From: Iphinoe sp. HA4291-MV1
GTDB taxonomy: Bacteria; Cyanobacteriota; Cyanobacteriia; Cyanobacteriales; Nostocaceae
Direction: 5' to 3'
Length of the DNA stretch: 64,000 nucleotides
Assembly (NCBI GenBank): GCA_019359415.1
Contig: JAHHHH010000009.1
Span: 1 to 64,000, forward strand
This document shows, one piece after another, positions 13,650 through 62,827 of the stretch. How positions within the stretch are numbered: position 1 is the stretch's first letter; each line of letters begins with the position of its first letter. Both the position numbers and the translations under genes were made by a program. Under the pieces are notes generated by a model. The model had not been told where the DNA came from and did no database searches. It saw nothing but the letters and a program-made list of their open reading frames with translations.

Positions 13650-15587
13650 ATGCCAGTTGAAACTAATAATAAGAAACGTCAAAAACCGCCAAGAATACGT
13701 CAGTTTGGTGGTAGCTTGCTCATTCTGTTGACTCTTCTTTTTCTCCTGAATGCGATTGTTCCAAGCTTTTTTGGTCCTAGACTACCGCAAGTACCTTATA
13801 GCGATTTTATTGCTCAGGTACAAGCAGGCAAAGTAGAGCGGGCAATTGTGGGAGGCGATCGCATTGAGTATGTCCTGAAAACTCAAACCCCAGATGGCAA
13901 GCCTACAGAACAAGTGTTCACTAGTACACCAGTGGCGATCGACCTGGATTTACCTAAAATTCTTCGTGACAATAACGTAGAGTTTGCCGCACCACCACCA
14001 AACCAAAATGGTTGGATTGGCACTCTCCTAAGCTGGGTTGTACCACCATTAATTTTCTTTGGTATTTGGGGCTTTTTGCTGAATCGCGGTGCGGGTGGTC
14101 CCGCAGCACTCACAGTGGGCAAAAGTAAAGCTCGCATCTACTCTGAAGGTAGCACTGGTGTAAAATTTACCGATGTTGCTGGCGTAGATGAAGCAAAAGC
14201 CGAACTAGAAGAGATTGTTGATTTCCTCAAAAGTGCTGATAAATACACCCGCTTAGGAGCAAAAATTCCCAAAGGAGTTTTGGTGGTAGGACCTCCAGGA
14301 ACTGGTAAAACACTCTTGGCAAAGGCAATTGCTGGTGAAGCTAGTGTCCCCTTCTTCAGCATCTCTGGTTCTGAATTTATCGAACTCTTTGTTGGTATCG
14401 GTGCTGCACGAGTCCGTGACTTGTTTGAGCAAGCAAAACAACAAGCTCCCTGTATCGTCTTTATTGATGAATTGGATGCATTGGGTAAATCTCGTGGTGG
14501 TGCTGGTCCTATCATGGGTGGTAACGATGAACGGGAACAAACCCTCAACCAGTTACTGACCGAAATGGACGGCTTTGATGCTAACACTGGAGTTATCATC
14601 ATCGCCGCTACCAACCGTCCCGAAGTTCTTGACCCCGCATTGCGCCGTCCCGGTCGCTTTGACCGTCAAGTCGTCGTGGATCGCCCTGACAAAATTGGTC
14701 GTGATGCTATTCTCAAAGTTCATGCCAGAAATGTCAAATTGGCTGATGACGTGAACTTAGCAACCATCGCCATTAGGACACCTGGGTTTGCTGGAGCAGA
14801 TTTAGCCAACCTTGTCAACGAAGCTGCACTTCTTGCTGCACGGCAAAATCGACAAGCAGTGATCATGGCAGATTTCAACGAAGCCATTGAGCGCGTTGTT
14901 GCTGGTTTGGAAAAACGTTCTCGCGTTCTCAATGAAATTGAGAAAAAGACAGTCGCTTATCACGAAGTTGGTCACGCCATCATCGGCGCTTTGATGCCAG
15001 GAGCTGGTAAAGTTGAGAAAATCTCCGTTGTCCCTCGTGGTGTTGGTGCCTTGGGTTACACAATTCAGATGCCAGAAGAAGACCGCTTCTTGATGATAGA
15101 AGACGAAATTCGTGGTCGTATTGCAACCTTGTTAGGTGGACGTTCTGCAGAAGAAATCGTTTTTGGCAAGGTGTCCACAGGTGCGAGTGACGATATTCAA
15201 AAAGCAACTGACCTTGCAGAACGCGTTGTTACCATCTACGGTATGAGCGATAAACTTGGTCCTGTAGCATTTGAAAAAGTTCAACAGCAGTTTATCGAAG
15301 GATACGGTAACCCACGTCGTTCAATTAGTCCCGAAGTGACAGAAGAAATTGACCGCGAGGTGAAGCAGATTGTAGATAATGCTCATCATATTGCTTTGAG
15401 TATTTTACAAGAAAACCGCGACTTACTGGAGGAAACTGCACAGGATCTGTTGCAGAAGGAAATTCTCGAAGGCGCACAACTGCGGGAACGCCTTAACCAA
15501 GCCAAAGCACCAGCTGAACTATCTGAATGGTTGCGGACAGGTAAGTTATCGGAAGATAAGCCCTTGATGCAAAGTTTGTTAGTTTAA
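13650..15587 (+). CDS. ftsH: ATP-dependent zinc metalloprotease FtsH
   Basis: 645 aa, the usual length. Two N-terminal membrane helices (about residues 20-40 and 125-145) flank the lumenal/periplasmic domain. The AAA+ module has GPPGTGKT (Walker A), [10 protein letters not shown] (Walker B) and the second region of homology ending [15 protein letters not shown] is the zinc-protease motif. FtsH proteases pull damaged membrane proteins, such as photodamaged D1, out of thylakoid or plasma membranes and degrade them. The [18 protein letters not shown] stretch resembles cyanobacterial FtsH1/FtsH4-type rather than the FtsH2/FtsH3 thylakoid pair, but the subtype is uncertain. GGAGG lies upstream of the ATG. 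A palindrome follows the stop. Confidence 0.95.
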
Positions 15588-17224: not shown

Positions 17225-17443
17225 TGAGAAAGCTCCTTTTTTTAAGAGTCAAATACTATTAATATAATGGTATTGCAGGTTGTTCTGGTTTAACTTTTCA
17301 GTATCAATTGCAAACTGGTTACATCACGACTGGACTAACTACCCTTGATAATCAAGTGTCCCTTCAAAAAATTACTGTTTCCTACTAAACTTTTAACTAA
17401 AGGTAACTGAAATATTAGCAAAAAAGACGTGAGGAAAAGTTTA
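17225..17443. other. Short gap with a possible gene tail
   Basis: On the plus strand a start-less frame from about 17269 to the stop at 17388 reads GCSGLTFQYQLQTGYITTGL and ends ITVSY. It looks like the C-terminus of a lost gene, which I could not identify. The remainder is A/T-rich leader of the Uma2 gene. Confidence 0.3.
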
Positions 17444-18007
17444 ATGAATACTGTTGTCCTCAATCTAGAACCGATCGCTCATTTAAGTGATGAGCAATTC
17501 TATCAATTGTGTCTTGCCAATCGTGATTTAAGCCTGGAAATGAATGCAGCAGGAGAATTAATAATTGTGCCACCAGTTGGAGGAGAAAGCGGAAATCAAG
17601 AGGCAGACCTAATTACAGACTTGAATAATTGGAATCGTCAAGCTAAATTAGGCAAAGTTTTTAGTTCTTCAACTATCTTTATACTTCCAAATGGTGCAAA
17701 ACGTTCGCCTGATGTGGCTTGGGTTAAGTTGGAGAGGTGGGAAGCTTTAACGCCAGAACAACGCCAAAAATTTCCGCCACTTGTACCCGATTTTGCTATT
17801 GAACTGCGTTCAAAGACAGATCGGCTCAAACCTATCCAAGAGAAAATGCAGGAATACATCGAAAATGGTTTACGTTTGGGATGGCTGATCAATCCTCAAG
17901 ATGCAAGAGTGGAAATTTACCGACTCAATAAAGCTGTAGAAGTTATTCAAATGCCAGCGATTCTTTCTGGAGAAGATATCTTACCTGGATTTGAGTTACA
18001 AGTGTAG
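17444..18007 (+). CDS. Uma2 family (DUF820) putative endonuclease
   Basis: 187 aa from the ATG at 17444, supported by GAGGAAA about 9 nt upstream (GTG at 17429 is the alternative). Family features: an N-terminal LSDEQFYQLCLANRDLSLEM, then GGESGNQEADLITDLNNW, the acidic SPDVAWVKLERW, FAIELRSKTDRLKPIQEKM (the Glu-x-x-Ser/Lys of the PD-(D/E)XK-like fold) and GLRLGWLINP. Uma2 genes are highly expanded in cyanobacteria and are often called restriction-like nucleases, but biological roles are mostly unproven. It stands alone. Confidence 0.85.
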   Translation: MNTVVLNLEPIAHLSDEQFYQLCLANRDLSLEMNAAGELIIVPPVGGESGNQEADLITDLNNWNRQAKLGKVFSSSTIFILPNGAKRSPDVAWVKLERWEALTPEQRQKFPPLVPDFAIELRSKTDRLKPIQEKMQEYIENGLRLGWLINPQDARVEIYRLNKAVEVIQMPAILSGEDILPGFELQV

Positions 18008-18183: not shown

Positions 18184-18426
18184 AATGAGCCTTTAATATT
18201 CGTGAACGAGCCTTAAAAGTTGATTAATGAGTCTTTGATACTCGGCGACGAGCCTTTAATACTTGTGAACAAGTCTTTGAGCTTGATTAATGAGTCTTTG
18301 ACACTCGACGACGAGCCTTTAATACTCGTAAACAAGTCTTTGAGCTTGATTAATGAGTTTTTGATACTCGGCGACGAGCCTTTAATACTCGTGAACAAGT
18401 CTTTGAGCTTGATGAATGAGTCTTTA
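18184..18426. repeat. Nested 21-bp / 63-bp tandem repeat
   Basis: From 18184 the sequence divides into eleven consecutive 21-bp units plus a partial one, for example GACGAGCCTTTAATACTCGTG, each with the core AG(C/T)CTTTGAT. Three unit types alternate in fixed order, giving a 63-bp higher-order repeat visible at 18220, 18283, 18346 and 18409. Because 21 is divisible by 3, both strands stay open and give spurious repetitive proteins. Units have no unique spacers, so this is not a CRISPR array. It lies between the convergent Uma2 and catalase-like genes. Confidence 0.9.
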
Positions 18427-18494: not shown

Positions 18495-19676
18495 TTAAGC
18501 AGTTGGTTCCTGGTATTTGACTCCTCGTTTTTCGTGACGATTATTAGCAACGATAGGATAAACAATGCTGCGTAACCTATTGATTGCACCCACAGGACGA
18601 TGCACTGCTAAACCATTCCCAGGAGAAAAACTGAGATTTTCCCCAAAGTCACTTTCTTCGGGAGAATAAACCTTCTGATGCTTAACTGTCAGACGACCAA
18701 TTGTAAAAAAGGGTGATTCCTTTTCATTCCAAGGAATGGTAGTATCATCAATAGACATCTCTGGGCTAGTTTGAAATTGGATTTGAAAGTCCCAACAGTA
18801 TTCAGCATCAGGTTTTGCTAAAGCTTGAATGATATCCTCTCGGTAGTAGTTGTCCTCTGAACCTGAGGCTTTGGCACGCTGAAGCTCACTTTCTGGTCTG
18901 GACTCGAGAGGAAGCTGTTGATGAGGTGGTTCACAGGAAACTGGAGTAAATCCATATTTAATCACAACCGGATATTCCACAGGAACTCGACCTGGCTGGG
19001 ATGGATCAAAATCAGATTTGAGTCCCACAGAATACGCTGAAGCACTCCAATAGCGTTCTATGAGCAAAGTTTTGGGAAACCGTTTGAAACTGTCTTTGAG
19101 AAGTGAGAATTCGTAGGGATGCAAGTTTAGCCATAAAAGCACAAGCAACCTAAAAAGTGGAAACAGCCCTGCTCGATAAATCGCCGAAAAAAAGCCGTGG
19201 AAATCTTTGATGGTTCTAATAAAAAAGAGTTCGGTATTGTGGACAATAATATCTTGGGTTTTTAACTCGTGACTTTGCGGTAGTCGTTCTCCTTCTACCC
19301 CGATGACTTTTACAGCCATGGAGCGCGTATCTCCTTCATAATCATTCTTTACTGAAAACGCACCACTAGCAAATCGTAGCCACACCGGATATTGTTTCGG
19401 TTGTGCAAATAAACCTTGTTTTAGGGAAATGGCGCTAAGTTGAGCTTCAGTTAATGAGGTGCGTTTGCCCAATTCCTGCTTAAGTGCTGCTTCATCAAAG
19501 TCAAAAATTTCTAGAGTTCCTTGAACAGCAGCATGGGTTTTAGAGTGAGTATCTCTTTTTGCAGTTGGTTTCTTATCACCTCCGTAAAGATTGTCCATGT
19601 TTTTTTTGACGAGTTCACTCATGAGAGCGCAATATTTGGCTTCGTCTTTTTCTGGATATTCGGTAAATAGTTTCAT
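18495..19676 (-). CDS. Catalase-like haem protein (allene-oxide-synthase-like)
   Basis: 393 aa, shorter than true catalases (about 480 or more). It keeps the catalase-fold haem signatures: distal His48 in THAAVQGTLEIFD, VWLRFASGAFS (RFS region), DTRSMAVKVIG (DxRGFAVK equivalent), VHNTELFFIRT (distal Asn region), and near the C-terminus R369-SIV-Y373, the R-x-x-x-Y axial tyrosine motif. Small catalase-related proteins of this type, such as coral allene oxide synthase and cyanobacterial relatives, rearrange fatty-acid hydroperoxides rather than dismutate H2O2. Its position after a cyclooxygenase-like dioxygenase and a lipase strongly supports that role here, converting the dioxygenase product to an epoxide or related oxylipin. 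The exact product cannot be read from sequence. Confidence 0.82.
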   Translation of the reverse strand: MKLFTEYPEKDEAKYCALMSELVKKNMDNLYGGDKKPTAKRDTHSKTHAAVQGTLEIFDFDEAALKQELGKRTSLTEAQLSAISLKQGLFAQPKQYPVWLRFASGAFSVKNDYEGDTRSMAVKVIGVEGERLPQSHELKTQDIIVHNTELFFIRTIKDFHGFFSAIYRAGLFPLFRLLVLLWLNLHPYEFSLLKDSFKRFPKTLLIERYWSASAYSVGLKSDFDPSQPGRVPVEYPVVIKYGFTPVSCEPPHQQLPLESRPESELQRAKASGSEDNYYREDIIQALAKPDAEYCWDFQIQFQTSPEMSIDDTTIPWNEKESPFFTIGRLTVKHQKVYSPEESDFGENLSFSPGNGLAVHRPVGAINRLRSIVYPIVANNRHEKRGVKYQEPTA

Positions 19677-19698
19677 TTTTTTAAGTAGGATTAATTCA

Positions 19699-19864
19699 TC
19701 AATTGAGTTTCTTCCAATGTGCGATCGCTTGTTTGCGAGTGCGTTCCGCCCCGAAAGGCGGGGCGAAAGCCCATCGCTTGTTTGCGATTATTGCCTACCC
19801 AGCTTCGAGGATTTTTTTGAAATTGCTTCCAGGCTGCTTGGGCAAATTGGCGAACTTTTTCCGT
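19699..19864 (-). pseudogene. Gene-tail remnant split by a small palindromic insertion
   Basis: On the minus strand 19864 reads TEKVRQFAQAAWKQFQKNPR, then SWVGNNRKQ, and after an interruption IAHWKKLN-stop, which looks like the end of an unidentified gene. The break is a 49-bp unit containing a GC-rich palindrome around CCGCCCCGAAAGGCGGGGCG, flanked by a 15-bp direct repeat ATCGCTTGTTTGCGA at 19724-19738 and 19773-19787. The direct repeat looks like a duplication created by insertion. Confidence 0.45.
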
Positions 19865-19868
19865 ATTC

Positions 19869-19900
19869 GTAGGGTGCGTTACTTCGTTAACGCACCCTAC
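19869..19900. repeat. 13-bp-arm hairpin between oxylipin genes
   Basis: GTAGGGTGCGTTA (19869-19881) pairs perfectly with TAACGCACCCTAC (19888-19900) around a 6-nt loop. It lies 21 bp after the dioxygenase stop (minus strand) and could weaken read-through into the catalase-like gene or protect the upstream mRNA end. Confidence 0.75.
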
Positions 19901-19921
19901 AAAGTGAAATATTACAATCTC

Positions 19922-21556
19922 TTAAAGGTTAAAAGTCACTTTGTACTTCTTGTCTGATGGAGGAACATTGCGATTCACTAAATCTGAGACAGTTTTGGTA
20001 TTTTGAATAATTTCCCAACCCACAGGAGAAAAAGTGTCTTTATTGAAGATAGTGGGTGATAGTAAAGGATTATTCAACGCCTCAGAAAAGGCATCAATTC
20101 CAATTAAGCGTGCTACTAGAGGAGGGATAGTTGAATTTTTCCGCACCTCCTCGGCGTAAATTCCCACATAAAACTCAATATTATCAACATGACCATATAA
20201 TTCTTTGAGTTTCTCTTGAGCAAATTCATCGCCAGTAATTTGCTCAAACTTGGTCACTCTGGGGAAACCACACATTTGCCGATAATCGTTATAGCTTGCC
20301 AATTGCAGCTGTCGTCCCAGTCTAATAGAGGGTAACTCAGTTAACTCAACCAATATATCAGGGGTGTTGAATAAACCAATTCTTGTACCTGGTTGAGAAC
20401 AAGTTTCCTCCATCAATGCTCCTAAACCTTGATCAATAAACATCTTATTATTCCACAAAGATGCAGCGATATGGGTTGGTTTGCCATCATAGATAAATGT
20501 TTCCGGGATTGCACTATGCCAACGATAAACAAAATCAAATTCAATTGTCATCCAATTGGGACGATACCAACTTTCCTTTATAAAAGCTGGAGGATCGGCA
20601 AACAACTTAAAGTGATAGGGAGTTATATGGTTAATGTACTCTTCCATAATGATGTTTAAAATAATCACCATGAGAATATTTCTCGCGGTTTGGAAGAGGT
20701 GTTCATCATCCCAATCTGGATAACTGCGTGCTAACTCATCACAAAGACGATTATGTTCTCGGATACATAGAGTATTGAGCATGACGTAGCCAATTTGCAC
20801 ATTTGCTCGTTCTACTCCCATCGCAAACAGATATTGTTTTTTATCTGCAGGCAGTCTTTTTTCATCATTGATGGGTTCATAAAGACCGTTAAATTGAGGA
20901 TCAATTTCACCCTGTGCTGGATCAGTATAGTAAAACAAAGGATATTCTTCTTCTACGCCATCTTGACGTTTGAGTCTTTGAGTTTTGAATTTACCTCCTT
21001 GAAAGGTTCTTAAAAGATGTGTTTGTTTTCTGGTTAAACCATAAACATTACACAAATCAATTTCATGGTTGGAAGTATTTTTTAATTTCTTGTCCTTCTT
21101 GTGATCGATACGGAGAAAACTATCGGTAAACCACTGCACCCAATAGGGAAACAGCATAGTTGATTTGGGAGAATAAATTGTTTTACCATCTCTTTTATGG
21201 AATAAAACAGCCAAGTCTTCAACTTGTGGGAGATTCTTCTCGGAGTTGAACTTTGGGTCAGGCGGTAAATGTCGTCCGGTATAAGTGCGGTCATTGAGTG
21301 ATTCCCAAGAAGTATATGTATCAGTTTTCTTAGGAATGTTAGTATCAGGAATATGCTCATCTAGAGTCATCATACTGTAGGGATTAGGACGAGTAGGAAT
21401 TTTATAGATGAGACTATTGATCAGAGTTTTGTTAACTTTGTGTTTCAGAAATTCATTACTTTGGACAATGTCCCAAATACCTTTAAAATTTGTTAAAAGG
21501 AATGTCTGAAGTTTGTTATCAAACCCGTCTTTAGATGTGTCTCTTTTTCCAGACAT
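19922..21556 (-). CDS. Cyclooxygenase-like fatty-acid dioxygenase (haem peroxidase family)
   Basis: 544 aa animal-type haem peroxidase. The distal haem His164 lies in NHEIDLCNVYG (compare GHGVDLxxIYG in COX). The radical tyrosine and proximal histidine are in FVYRWHSAIPETF: Tyr344 and His347 correspond to COX Tyr385 and His388. It also has VERANVQIGYVMLNTLCIRE, IREHNRLCDEL and RLGRQLQLASYNDYRQMCGF, all COX/alpha-DOX landmarks. No EGF domain or signal peptide is seen. Proteins of this family in cyanobacteria add O2 to C18 fatty acids to give hydroperoxides. An AAGG site precedes the ATG. It lies between a class 3 lipase and a catalase-like haem protein on the same strand, which suggests one pathway. 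Regiospecificity is not predictable. Confidence 0.88.
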   Translation of the reverse strand: MSGKRDTSKDGFDNKLQTFLLTNFKGIWDIVQSNEFLKHKVNKTLINSLIYKIPTRPNPYSMMTLDEHIPDTNIPKKTDTYTSWESLNDRTYTGRHLPPDPKFNSEKNLPQVEDLAVLFHKRDGKTIYSPKSTMLFPYWVQWFTDSFLRIDHKKDKKLKNTSNHEIDLCNVYGLTRKQTHLLRTFQGGKFKTQRLKRQDGVEEEYPLFYYTDPAQGEIDPQFNGLYEPINDEKRLPADKKQYLFAMGVERANVQIGYVMLNTLCIREHNRLCDELARSYPDWDDEHLFQTARNILMVIILNIIMEEYINHITPYHFKLFADPPAFIKESWYRPNWMTIEFDFVYRWHSAIPETFIYDGKPTHIAASLWNNKMFIDQGLGALMEETCSQPGTRIGLFNTPDILVELTELPSIRLGRQLQLASYNDYRQMCGFPRVTKFEQITGDEFAQEKLKELYGHVDNIEFYVGIYAEEVRKNSTIPPLVARLIGIDAFSEALNNPLLSPTIFNKDTFSPVGWEIIQNTKTVSDLVNRNVPPSDKKYKVTFNL

Positions 21557-21598
21557 AATTGTTTTTACCTTTTTTTTAGTTTTGTATTTAATGCGCTC

Positions 21599-21743
21599 TT
21601 AGAGGATGTTTTAAAAGGGTCTTTTGCTCTCATAGTGAGCACAGCGAAGCATCTGGTGTACATGTCCCTTAATTTTTCATTGAATTTGACCCAAGTCAGA
21701 ACGGTAAAATTATACCTTCCGGGACTTTTAAAACATCCTCTAA
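21599..21743. mobile_element. MITE-like element with 19-bp terminal inverted repeats
   Basis: TTAGAGGATGTTTTAAAAG (21599-21617) is the exact reverse complement of 21725-21743. The 145-bp element has no coding capacity and lies between the lipase and dioxygenase genes. Length, perfect termini and lack of a gene fit a miniature inverted-repeat element mobilised in trans. A target duplication is not clear. Confidence 0.6.
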
Positions 21744-21909
21744 ATTTATCTGCTTCAGTTGCCCAATTCATTCAAAAAATTGAAGACTTCTTGTACTAAA
21801 GCTACTGATTTATCTACAATCAGCATACTGAGTATATCAGAATCAAGAGCAACTTTATCTGGTTACTTGTAGGGAAAAGACGAGGAAGCGATGCTCCCTT
21901 TGGGAGCCG

Positions 21910-22848
21910 CTACGCGATCGCATCTGCCTCTGAAATTACTCTGAGTAACGGCGGAATGTAACCTGTTGACATGTCATGATCAGTGATGCTGTTTATCCCT
22001 TCTTCGCGCAAGTCTTTTACTATATCAATAAAGATTTCTTGCCACTTTTGCCATATATTTAACTTTTCAAAATCTAAAATTTCGCCATCTTGTGTTAAGT
22101 ACTTAATTTGTCCGACATGACGAAAAAGGAAAAGGGGTGCCCAAGTCGGAATTTTGGTCACGACATCATTGTTATTAACAAATCGAAATGTCTTAGATCT
22201 GAGTCGAGAATTATATAACTTTGCAAAGCTCCAGTCTCCAACTCGGGGTTGTCCATAAGTATAAACCCCACTAACTTCAAAAGGTAAATTGTCAAAGAAA
22301 ATACAGTTAGCTGCGGCTAATACTGCTACAGCACCGCCTAAACTGTGTCCTGTAAACCACAGTGATTTAGAAGAATTTTTCATTTCTTCTTGGATGATGG
22401 CTTTAATGCCTTTAGCTTCTATTCTTTCTTGGGGATCTTTATAAGGTTTCCAAATATTATTTAAATAGTTACAAAAACCCGTATGCAGGCAGAGATTGTA
22501 ATTATTGCTAAAATCTCGACTCTTCAGTCGATTGAAGTTCACCTCCCAGTCAGATAGTTCTTCGCTTCCTCGAAAAGCAACAATAACTTTCTCTGCATCC
22601 GCCAACAGAATTGCCTGCGCACCTTGGTTATTGAAGCAATAAACGCGATCGCTAACAAATCCCCAAGCAGACGCTTCTTGCTTCACTCGCTTTCGCCAGT
22701 CATCGTTGTTTTCATTCTTACCTCCTAATTTTTCTACTTTTTCTCTTCTATAAGTTTCTACGCAGAGTTGAGCTAGTAGGTAAGCGTTGTTAGCATCATA
22801 TGTTGAAGCTTGGGAATTAAACGATGCAAAGGAAAGAGGAGCATTCAT
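21910..22848 (-). CDS. Class 3 lipase (alpha/beta hydrolase)
   Basis: 312 aa. Lipase_3 features: VIVAFRGSEELSDWEVNFN (oxyanion and lid region), LCLHTGFCNYLNNIW, the nucleophile elbow WFTGHSLGGAVAVLAAA (catalytic Ser), VYTYGQPRVGD, VNNNDVVTKIP (catalytic Asp) and SITDHDMSTGY (catalytic His). There is no signal peptide, so a cytoplasmic or membrane-associated role is likely. It would hydrolyse glycerolipids to free fatty acids. It is the first of three same-strand genes, followed by a fatty-acid dioxygenase and a catalase-like protein, matching the order of an oxylipin pathway. The intervening gaps (353 and 245 bp) carry repeats, so one common transcript is not certain. Confidence 0.85.
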   Translation of the reverse strand: MNAPLSFASFNSQASTYDANNAYLLAQLCVETYRREKVEKLGGKNENNDDWRKRVKQEASAWGFVSDRVYCFNNQGAQAILLADAEKVIVAFRGSEELSDWEVNFNRLKSRDFSNNYNLCLHTGFCNYLNNIWKPYKDPQERIEAKGIKAIIQEEMKNSSKSLWFTGHSLGGAVAVLAAANCIFFDNLPFEVSGVYTYGQPRVGDWSFAKLYNSRLRSKTFRFVNNNDVVTKIPTWAPLFLFRHVGQIKYLTQDGEILDFEKLNIWQKWQEIFIDIVKDLREEGINSITDHDMSTGYIPPLLRVISEADAIA

Positions 22849-23178: not shown

Positions 23179-24939
23179 TTAACTCCGCTGCCAAATTTTA
23201 ATCGTCTTATCCAAACTCCCACTCACCAAAAGTTCCCCCGAAGCAGTAAAAGCCAATGCTGTTACCGTGTGCGTATGACCTGTAAATGTACTAAGCAATT
23301 CTCCGGTTTGTAGGTGCCACAATTTAATAGTTTGATCAGCGCTACCACTGGCAATAATTTGTCCATCAGGACTCAGGGCTACAGCATATACTCCATCTCT
23401 GTGTGCGTCGAGGGTGTGAAGTAGTTCCCCATTTTCTAACTGCCAAATTTTAATCGTTTTATCCCGACTCCCACTGACTAAAATCTTGCTATCTGCACTA
23501 ACACTCAAGGAACGAACAATATGGGAATGACCTGTAAACGAGTGCAGTAATTCGGGAACGAAAGGTATACTAGTTTCCTGTTGGGAGATACGCCAGACTT
23601 TAATTTTGCGGTAACTCCCTGTGACTAGAGTTTGCCCATCGCTACTCAAAGCAAGTGAATGAGCAGCGGTATCTTCTAAAGATAGGGCGCTAGTAACCTG
23701 ACGCTGCATCAAGTCCCAAAACATAATTGTTCTATCATCTCCCCCAGTTGCCAACATTCGTCCATCTGGAGTAAAAGCAACACACCGCACCATCCCATTA
23801 TGCTTGTGCAGAATATCGATCAAGTCTTGTGCTCCGACATGCCAAAGCTTAATTGTAGAGTCTGCACCAGCACTGACTAATGTTTGCCCATCTGGACTGA
23901 AAGCAAGCGAATTCACTTCATCTACCAGTCCGGATAAAATCCAAGGATGCTCTGATAATGTCCCTATTAACTCACCCTTGGTCAAATCCCATAGTTTTGT
24001 CTCCCCACGACTACCACTTGCTACAAGAGGAGAGGTGTTACCGTTGTTACCTCTGTGACTGAAGGCTAGGCAATTTATTCCTCTAGTATGTCCTTTTAAG
24101 GTCTGCCAGCATTCCCAGTCACCTACTATTGTTTTAAGCGGATGATCTGGTGCCAGAGTCTGAGTTGTCTCTGTCATCACAATCTCATTCAAGACTCGCA
24201 ATTTGTCTTTTTTTGTACTCAATAATTGTAAGTACCAACTCAATCCCCCCGCATATAATAACTGACTTGGGGTTATGTATAGTTTTGGCTCACTAAATTC
24301 AATTTGATTTGTAGGTAAAAAACCTGCAACAATCGCTTGTTTTTCGTAACCTTTTTGACTATTAAATGGATAAAACAAACATAGGAAAATTAAGACTTGA
24401 TGATTTTTTAAATCCTCTTGTGTGACAGACCATCTCACTTTATCTTTCTTGATACTGTTAAAACTTTCTCCATCAGCAGCGTAAACTTGAAGACTGAGTC
24501 TGGGGTGACTTGCAAGCTGGTAGGAAAATTTACTTTCGTTACGTAAGTTTCCCTCATCATCTAAAACCATGTTGTTCAAGGCATCTTGTGCCACTTTTTT
24601 CACCTGCTTTCCCAGGCGATCGCTCATCACCCGATCAACGATTTGCTCTCGCAAAAGATAATCTTCCGCTTGCTGCTGGAAGTATCTTGTAAAGGGGATC
24701 GTCCAGTCAGGAGGATCAGGATACTCAGGCGGTGTAGGAGGGGGATTTTTGGCGATAATTTCTGCTTGTTGACAAGCAATCTCCAGCAGTTTTGCCAATG
24801 GTTCGCCCCAAAATGCAATAATTTCACTATGGCAACCTTTGACTTGACTTTCCAGTAAAGATAGATCGTAAGTCTTAGGTTTTTTGACTCGTTGAAGGAA
24901 ATCAGCTTGTTGAGCTTTTAGTAAGCTAATCCAATCCAT
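23179..24939 (-). CDS. WD40 repeat protein with uncharacterised N-terminal domain
   Basis: About 586 aa. The N-terminal 270 residues (LLKAQQADFLQRVKKPKTYD, FTRYFQQQAEDYLLREQIVD, LSLQVYAADG) form an unrecognised soluble domain also met in front of other cyanobacterial WD40 proteins. The rest is seven WD40 repeats ending TKLWDL, TIKLWHV, TIMFWDL, KIKVWRI, TIKIWQL, TIKLWHL and TIKIWQ, giving one seven-bladed propeller for protein binding. The start at 24939 is preferred because AGGA lies 6 nt upstream; in-frame ATGs at 24945 and 24966 are alternatives. A scaffold role is likely; the partner is unknown. Confidence 0.85.
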   Translation of the reverse strand: MDWISLLKAQQADFLQRVKKPKTYDLSLLESQVKGCHSEIIAFWGEPLAKLLEIACQQAEIIAKNPPPTPPEYPDPPDWTIPFTRYFQQQAEDYLLREQIVDRVMSDRLGKQVKKVAQDALNNMVLDDEGNLRNESKFSYQLASHPRLSLQVYAADGESFNSIKKDKVRWSVTQEDLKNHQVLIFLCLFYPFNSQKGYEKQAIVAGFLPTNQIEFSEPKLYITPSQLLYAGGLSWYLQLLSTKKDKLRVLNEIVMTETTQTLAPDHPLKTIVGDWECWQTLKGHTRGINCLAFSHRGNNGNTSPLVASGSRGETKLWDLTKGELIGTLSEHPWILSGLVDEVNSLAFSPDGQTLVSAGADSTIKLWHVGAQDLIDILHKHNGMVRCVAFTPDGRMLATGGDDRTIMFWDLMQRQVTSALSLEDTAAHSLALSSDGQTLVTGSYRKIKVWRISQQETSIPFVPELLHSFTGHSHIVRSLSVSADSKILVSGSRDKTIKIWQLENGELLHTLDAHRDGVYAVALSPDGQIIASGSADQTIKLWHLQTGELLSTFTGHTHTVTALAFTASGELLVSGSLDKTIKIWQRS

Positions 24940-25249
24940 TTGCATTCCTGCTGCGCAGCATTGCATACCTAAGTTAAGTTATACCAAGGCAATTGCTCAA
25001 GTTAGTGTATCAACTTTAGTTATTGAAGAAGGAAGTCATTCCAGTAGTTAATGTAACACAACCTTTTTTGTAGATAGACACCAAGTAACCAGTCCAAAGG
25101 ATATAGTCAAGTGATGACGTAGCCAGTTTGCCTTGGGAAAATTGAGATGATAGATGATTCTACCTAACCTGGAGCATAAGATACTGTTTCACCAGACGCA
25201 GTTTTGTCTAAAACTGTGATCAAATTTGAAAAAATCTGAGGGCGAAGGG
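24940..25249. other. Divergent intergenic gap
   Basis: This holds the promoters of the WD40 gene (leftward) and the DUF2087 gene (rightward). No repeat, RNA or small gene was recognised. Confidence 0.4.
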
Positions 25250-61458: not shown

Positions 61459-62827
61459 TAGATCAATAACTTTAGGTGGTCGTGACCAAGATTCCACTGG
61501 CTTTGCCTGGTGGGCTGGTAACGCCCGTCTTATTAGCCTCTCCGGTAAACTGTTGGGCGCTCACGTTGCCCATGCTGGTTTGATTGTATTTTGGGCTGGA
61601 GCGATGACCTTGTTTGAAGTCGCTCACTTCATTCCCGAAAAGCCCTTATACGAGCAGGGCTTCATCCTGCTACCTCACCTCGCTACCTTAGGATGGGGTG
61701 TTGGTCCTGGTGGTGAAATTATTAGCACCTACCCTTACTTTGTTGTCGGTGTAGTGCACCTCATTTCCTCCGCTGTACTCGGTTTTGGCGGTATCTATCA
61801 CGCCATCCGTGGTCCAGAAACCTTAGAAGAGTACTCCTCTTTCTTTGGTTATGACTGGAAAGACAAGAACAAGATGACCACCATCATCGGGTTCCATCTC
61901 ATTATTTTGGGAGTCGGTGCCCTACTGTTGGTGCTGAAGGCAATCTTTTTCGGTGGTGTCTACGATACTTGGGCACCTGGCGGTGGTGATGTTCGTGTCA
62001 TTACCAACCCAACACTGAACCCAGCAGTCATCTTCGGTTATCTGCTGAAGTCTCCATTCGGTGGAAGTGGCTGGATCGTCGGTGTCGATAACATGGAAGA
62101 TGTCATCGGTGGTCACATTTGGGTTGGTCTCACCTGCATTGCTGGGGGCGTTTTCCACATCCTCACTAAGCCTTTTGGCTGGGCACGTCGCGCTTTGATC
62201 TGGTCAGGTGAAGCTTACCTCTCCTACAGCTTGGCTGCTGTAGCCCTAATGGCCTTCACTGCTTCTTGCTTCGTCTGGTTCAACAACACCGTCTATCCCA
62301 GCGAATTTTACGGACCAACAAACGCTGAAGCCTCCCAGGCTCAGTCTTTCATCTTCTTGGTGCGTGACCAGAAGCTGGGGGCTAACGTCGCTTCTGCCCA
62401 AGGTCCTACTGGTCTAGGTAAATACCTAATGCGCTCCCCCACTGGTGAAATCATCTTCGGTGGTGAGACCATGCGCTTCTGGGATTTCCGTGGTCCTTGG
62501 CTGGAACCTCTGCGCGGTCCCAACGGTCTTGACTTGGATAAGATAAAGTATGACGTTCAGCCTTGGCAAGTTCGTCGTGCAGCTGAGTACATGACCCACG
62601 CTCCCAACGGTTCACTCAACTCTGTGGGTGGAGTCATCACGGAGCCTAACTCCTTCAACTATGTTAATCCCCGTGCTTGGTTAGCGACTTCCCACTTCGT
62701 GTTAGCCTTCTTCTTCCTTATTGGTCACTGGTGGCACGCTGGTCGTGCTCGTGCAGCCGCTGGTGGTTTTGAGAAGGGAATTAACCGTCAGACTGAACCA
62801 GTATTGTTCATGAAGGAACTCGACTAA
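61442..62827 (+). CDS. psbC: Photosystem II CP43 antenna protein
   Basis: 461 aa from a GTG at 61442, inside psbD (17-bp overlap). GAGG at 61429-61432, 9 nt upstream, supports this start, and [19 protein letters not shown] is the usual CP43 N-terminus. The larger open frame upstream (from 61331) is psbD antiphase. Six helices bind chlorophylls through conserved His; the lumenal Mn-cluster residues are in [12 protein letters not shown] (Glu354, Arg357 in usual numbering). Some positions differ from typical Nostoc CP43 (for example HWWHAG for HLWHAG, and [13 protein letters not shown]), which may be lineage drift. Confidence 0.96.

Follow-up and report, generated by a model that had tools for sequence, protein, structure and literature searches.

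The stretch analysed here (the window: 64,000 nucleotides of Iphinoe sp. HA4291-MV1, contig JAHHHH010000009.1, positions 1 to 64,000) carries genes for a class 3 lipase, a cyclooxygenase (COX)-related haem fatty acid dioxygenase (DOX) and a catalase-related haem protein (CAT), which in our judgement are likely to form a cassette for a C8 volatile oxylipin that joins the lipase to a 10S-DOX-like enzyme and a hydroperoxide lyase. By analogy, the product is probably akin to that of the known 1-octen-3-ol ("mushroom alcohol") pathway from linoleic acid. The linoleate 10S-dioxygenase and catalase-related 10S-hydroperoxide lyase of Nostoc punctiforme (Brash et al. 2014) are cited in passages of PMC9579011, PMC9410191 and PMC13049297, the first two of which state that the dioxygenase makes linoleate 10S-hydroperoxide (10S-HPODE) and that the catalase-like protein cleaves it to 1-octen-3-ol. 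This places the cluster in a pathway that has been characterised, and whose volatile product is definite and can be tested for. The original prediction from this DNA had assigned no product and had likened CAT to an allene oxide synthase (AOS); since the closest characterised pair gives linoleate 10S-hydroperoxide and then 1-octen-3-ol, CAT is better named a predicted hydroperoxide lyase.

21910..22848, minus strand: class 3 lipase, 312 amino acids (aa); Pfam PF01764 at 3.7e-28, 98.6 bits against a cut-off of 22; Ser169 in GHSLGG
19922..21556, minus strand: DOX (544 aa), a COX-related haem dioxygenase of fatty acids, predicted to be 10S-dioxygenase-like; Tyr344, His347 (proximal) and Asp145 (distal position)
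18495..19676, minus strand: CAT (393 aa), a haem protein related to catalases and predicted to be a hydroperoxide lyase; R41, T43, H44, R101, N147, Y373, R380

Proposed pathway

The order of transcription on the minus strand is lipase (22848-21910), DOX (21556-19922) and CAT (19676-18495). Pfam assigns all three families, the catalase barely, and together with the open reading frames (ORFs) bears out the three same-strand genes first described; the succession proposed for them, i.e., fatty acid release, dioxygenation and hydroperoxide conversion, remains the best reading of the sequences. The class 3 lipase would free an 18-carbon unsaturated fatty acid, most likely linoleate, from cell lipid. 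In DOX, a haem with His347 as its ligand would drive a Tyr344 radical, and O2 would be placed onto C10 of linoleate or oleate to give the 10S-hydroperoxide. CAT, whose haem would be ligated by Tyr373 and whose pocket comprises Thr43, His44 and Asn147, would then convert this intermediate to 1-octen-3-ol and a 10-carbon oxo-acid. The last two steps are proposed because DOX and CAT are related to the characterised N. punctiforme partners and share residues with them.

DOX resembles 10S-dioxygenases

The best solved-structure matches of DOX are COX-2 and COX-1, and its residues 19-531 are homologous to mammalian cyclooxygenases. The catalytic Tyr and proximal His expected of a 10S-DOX lie in the motif YRWH (Tyr344, His347), which, like Asp145, Arg250 and Gln141, is present in 39/39 aligned rows, a picked set of relatives. 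Mammalian PGHS-1/2 share this Tyr and proximal His but have a distal His (COX His207) where DOX has Asp145, so DOX lacks this mark of a mammalian-type cyclooxygenase. The original prediction was right about Tyr344 and His347, whereas its distal His164 gives way to Asp145 in the alignment. Two further marks of a 10S-DOX, a non-His distal residue (FTDSF) and an Arg at the position of COX Val291, occur in all 39 rows, the equivalence of Arg250 and Val291 being our own reading of the alignment. The known bacterial 10S-DOX is ~50 residues shorter than COX.

The central and Tyr motifs agree, in a by-eye comparison, with those printed for N. punctiforme 10S-DOX B2J5P4, and the N. punctiforme 10S-DOX/lyase pair belongs to the same two protein families, with the same Tyr/His and Asp-type distal DOX site. 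The DOX proteins of L001-L022, L040 and L043 are 83-93% identical to the window's. In the Nostoc loci, DOX is 83-86% and CAT 83-90% identical to the window proteins, with 85% and 89%, respectively, in N. punctiforme NIES-2108 (L015), which has a Tle1-like hydrolase 5' of DOX instead of the class 3 lipase. The catalytic and haem residues tested in DOX and CAT fit the 10S-DOX/hydroperoxide lyase assignment. The fungal CcDOX1 of Coprinopsis is described in passages of PMC9579011 as having the same 10S-hydroperoxide intermediate and 1-octen-3-ol end product; it differs in the fusion of DOX to a P450-related domain, and in that paper the cleaving enzyme had yet to be identified.

CAT resembles catalase-related hydroperoxide enzymes

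CAT scores 25.5 bits against Pfam Catalase (cut-off, 25) and has no NCBIfam match at 0.001, NCBIfam's range of catalase models being unchecked. It has a catalase-type fold, and the seven haem-pocket residues of the coral (Plexaura, Capnella) catalase-related AOS/hydroperoxide lyase, numbered R64/T66/H67/R102/N137/Y353/R360 in coral AOS (cAOS), have their counterparts in R41, T43, H44, R101, N147, Y373 and R380; R101 alone lies within a displayed alignment, and the other six were placed by motif and spacing. Across 29 chosen CAT rows, R41, H44, R101, Y373 and R380 are kept in 29/29, and Thr43 and Asn147 in the 24/24 close ones. The coral enzymes are catalase-fold haem proteins acting on a fatty acid hydroperoxide, as is predicted for CAT, although CAT is only 16% identical to the coral-type structure 1u5u over the Foldseek alignment. 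The coral enzyme is fused to a lipoxygenase, whereas CAT is a separate gene and its partner a haem dioxygenase. A cyanobacterial catalase-haem dioxygenase fusion of 2012 appears in a passage of the review PMC11719350, whereas passages of other papers give two proteins; DOX and CAT are two separate genes here.

The catalase fold and haem-pocket residues would also suit a detoxifying catalase or peroxidase that guards the cell against DOX peroxides and makes no dedicated product, and coral cAOS itself breaks down H2O2 (a passage of PMC5617202). We nevertheless consider this role very improbable, given a Pfam score barely above the cut-off, the lack of an NCBIfam match and the cleavage of the 10S-hydroperoxide by the partner in the characterised pair. 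A second DOX or CAT was not found in the window's own genome, a weak null as the search also missed the window's own proteins.

In five loci (L029, L039, L042, L058 and L064), the DOX relative adjoins a catalase-related protein that has diverged from CAT (29-36% identity in the alignment); Thr43 is replaced by Gln, Glu or Ala, and Asn147 gives way to Asp in two cases. These divergent proteins possibly yield a different product.

The DOX-CAT pair is conserved

A contig scan gave 48 loci with a DOX relative, in which neighbours were counted where at least 1.5 kb of flank was available on the side counted. A same-strand CAT follows 3' of DOX in 35/43 loci, 32 of the 35 proteins being >50% identical to the window's; L002, with CAT 5' of DOX at a contig end, was scored as being without CAT 3'. 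The two N. punctiforme PCC 73102 genes are reportedly neighbours. The DOX-CAT neighbourhood is therefore conserved. The wider three-gene neighbourhood anticipated by the original prediction holds for this pair but not for the lipase gene itself, which recurs in 1/44 loci.

DOX has matches in 14/60 relatives (by listing, 10 at >=49% identity and 4 weak), and CAT in 121/218 family genomes at E 0.001 or better, with near-full-length matches of at least 63% in 46/218 as counted from the listing. The distribution of the pathway is therefore patchy. A plasmid of Paracoccus yeei has a DOX relative (40%) that overlaps a gene with a catalase-family annotation, whose product shares 29% identity with CAT; on a plasmid of Sinorhizobium medicae (L144 2724-5641), another DOX relative (38%) overlaps a cytochrome P450 gene. 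A haem dioxygenase with a haem partner thus recurs outside cyanobacteria.

Several loci show further features. On the P. yeei plasmid (L143 1141-5617), a RoxA-like cytochrome c gene, the catalase-family gene and the DOX relative lie in a row, and the P450-DOX overlap of S. medicae resembles fungal DOX-P450 fusions. The gene 3' of a DOX relative on an Acaryochloris plasmid was considered as CAT and rejected, as it matches a transposase family. In Cyanobacteria bacterium UBA11370 (L024 7515-9521), DOX has a gene of the lipoxygenase family (37 bits) on its 5' side. Short contigs assigned to Eremiobacterota and Rhodospirillales bins (L030 and L034) carry DOX relatives with 63% identity, which may reflect transfer or mis-binning; in L030, an alpha/beta hydrolase (DUF900) is directly 3' of the DOX relative. 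Frames of CAT in L027 and L033, of DOX in L037 and of the Tle1-like gene in L001 look broken or short, perhaps through decay or assembly error.

Two hydrolase families share the position 5' of DOX

The window lipase belongs to class 3, as it scores above the Pfam Lipase_3 cut-off and carries GHSLGG; its triad is presumably completed by Asp228 (NNND) and His244 (RHVG). Among the 44 loci with enough 5' flank, a class 3 lipase precedes DOX in one, L004 (Nostocales cyanobacterium HT-58-2), where it is 87% identical to the window's. A Tle1-like hydrolase occupies this position on the same strand in 25/44 loci, 63-310 bp from DOX by match ends, and 18/44 have neither. All 28 Tle1-like proteins searched against Pfam, some of them from G-labelled loci, matched PF09994; L001 and L019, whose frames are short (185 and 288 aa), were left out of that check but scored as carriers by tblastn. 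The class 3 lipase and the Tle1-like hydrolase share no similarity that BLASTP rates as significant. A structure model of the Tle1-like protein for fold search was too poor (predicted local distance difference test, 49.4) and was dropped. Both hydrolases are named by family, and their activity here is predicted. Two dissimilar families of lipid hydrolases at one position speak for lipid hydrolysis as the opening step but do not prove it. The association with the rest of the cassette points the same way: of 40 loci with both flanks, a close CAT is present in 25/25 with either hydrolase versus 6/15 without (Fisher p 1.8e-5, for loci that are not independent and with shared ancestry uncorrected).

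The lipase could instead be an unrelated chance neighbour of a 10S-DOX/hydroperoxide lyase pair. Besides its presence in just 1/44 loci, the lipase has no close counterpart in 60 relatives, as 25 have a match and the best is 39% identical over most of its length, so that it is not a gene shared by the group; moreover, a mobile-type element stands between lipase and DOX. Nonetheless, we rate this explanation as unlikely. The other hydrolase family fills the same position in more than half of the loci, and L004 repeats the lipase-DOX-CAT order at a site that lacks the ftsH and WD40 flanks of the window. Furthermore, PF09994 has no match in the window's genome or that of L004, in contrast to the three Tle1-bearing genomes tested, and tblastn found no Tle1-like gene in the window. 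The lipase and the Tle1-like hydrolase are candidates for the missing first step of the pathway, and the occurrence of two families at one position makes the question of the substrate-freeing enzyme answerable by gene deletion. In the partial texts surveyed, which did not extend to the original 2014 paper, we found no published account of a lipase gene next to the 10S-DOX pair of cyanobacteria.

Evidence at odds with the proposed pathway

Some observations weigh against the cassette or its product. The intergenic gaps are 353 bp (lipase-DOX) and 245 bp (DOX-CAT), wide and repeat-bearing, which makes co-transcription uncertain. Promoter- and terminator-like sites around the cluster were no more frequent than in shuffled sequence. 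Fifteen of the 40 both-flank loci have neither hydrolase; CAT is nevertheless close in 6 of these, divergent in 3 and missing from 6. On substrate supply, the genome's 9 PF00487 desaturase-family matches, in part fragments of a single gene, count in favour of the pathway; NCBIfam, with matches only far below its cut-offs, identified no linoleate-forming desaturase.

The DOX pocket adds to these points. The terminal motif GRxxSxIPAxxARxIGxDAFxQA, printed for the one characterised 10S-DOX, fails in the window (VRKNSTIPPLVARLIGIDAFSEA) at 3 printed positions, with Val471 for Gly, Pro478 for Ala and Glu492 for Gln; it has 2 mismatches in L004, 1 in L015 and 0 in L008. Tyr463 stands where a review gives Phe for 10S-DOX. 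DOX thus differs from the published N. punctiforme 10S-DOX at four pocket positions, and its regiospecificity could differ accordingly. The characterised 10S-DOX sequence is absent from the loci, and NIES-2108 was used as its stand-in. As the printed motif is not matched exactly, we label DOX as 10S-DOX-like, which is a prediction.

These four departures would suit a variant of the pathway with another end product, in which the altered DOX pocket or the pocket of CAT leads to a different isomer of the hydroperoxide, or to chemistry of the allene oxide or epoxy alcohol kind. F150L-type substitutions partly turn a coral catalase-related lyase towards AOS (a passage of PMC5617202). The high identity of both proteins to the Nostoc loci and the unchanged catalytic residues tested make another product rather improbable, and the C8 volatile remains our preferred outcome.

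The intergenic and adjoining repeats are as follows.

21601..21741, no strand assigned: element like a miniature inverted-repeat transposable element (MITE), 141 bp, ending in perfect 17-bp inverted repeats, in the lipase-DOX gap
19869..19900, no strand assigned: palindrome with 13-bp arms, between DOX and CAT
18187..18425, no strand assigned: tandem repeat, 63-bp unit, 3.8 copies, just 3' of CAT

The MITE-like element has one more copy, 85% identical, elsewhere in the same genome.

The cassette site in the genus

Two genes flank the site that is shared by congeners.

23179..24966, minus strand: WD40 repeat protein, on the 5' flank of the cassette; it also flanks the cassette of the same-genus genome G004
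13650..15587, plus strand: ftsH-like gene, which we take to be ftsH from its sequence, on the other side of the site

Of seven congeners searched, G004 alone has DOX; there too, ftsH and WD40 enclose the cassette, with a Tle1-like gene replacing the lipase. Four of the six congeners without DOX (G002, G003, G005 and G007) have ftsH and WD40 ~0.9-1.7 kb apart and cassette-free, and ftsH was not seen in the stretch taken from G001 and G006. In a DNA tree of DOX and CAT (21 chosen rows), the window pairs with G004 (support, 87/97), which favours an in-place swap of the hydrolase. The protein tree of DOX and CAT places the window within a 7-row set of Tle1-like carriers (96) and groups G004 with L002, not with the window; it left out L027, L033, L035, L036, L055 and loci without a close CAT. 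L046 and L048, with partial DOX, were left out of one tree. A single origin of the two lipase-bearing cassettes, of the window and L004, is not rejected by approximately unbiased tests that join them (p 0.10, protein tree; p 0.16, DNA tree). The Tle1-like gene tree (17 chosen rows) sets G004 with L003 and L005, weakly (56/84), and sliding-window identity reveals no switch to L004 as the closest relative at the DOX 5' end.

Synonymous divergence between the window and G004 is 0.22-0.24 for CAT and DOX versus 0.35 for ftsH and 0.48 for WD40, a pattern that fits, without proving, exchange of the cassette after the two species split. Between the window and L004, it is 0.30 for CAT, 0.34 for DOX and 0.46 for the lipase. 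Tentatively, and with some doubt, the cassette may be a modular, horizontally moving volatile-oxylipin unit in which the hydrolase is swapped between unrelated families, with an in-place exchange in the window's genus, so that hosts would tap different lipid pools. These pools would perhaps be phospholipids for the Tle1-like hydrolase and galactolipids or acylglycerols for the class 3 lipase.

Two congeners have partial 3' ftsH copies between ftsH and WD40 (L134 11972-12302, 335 bp; L136 6311-6608, 298 bp), one beyond the cassette and the other cassette-free with a duplicated 74-aa ORF. They hint at the way in which this site was rearranged.

Other features of the window

The 63-bp tandem repeat (18187-18425) sits between CAT and a Uma2-family gene (17429-18007). 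Rfam at gathering scores gave no match near the cluster; elsewhere in the window, the antisense RNA IsrR was found at 61856-62042 on the minus strand (168 bits).

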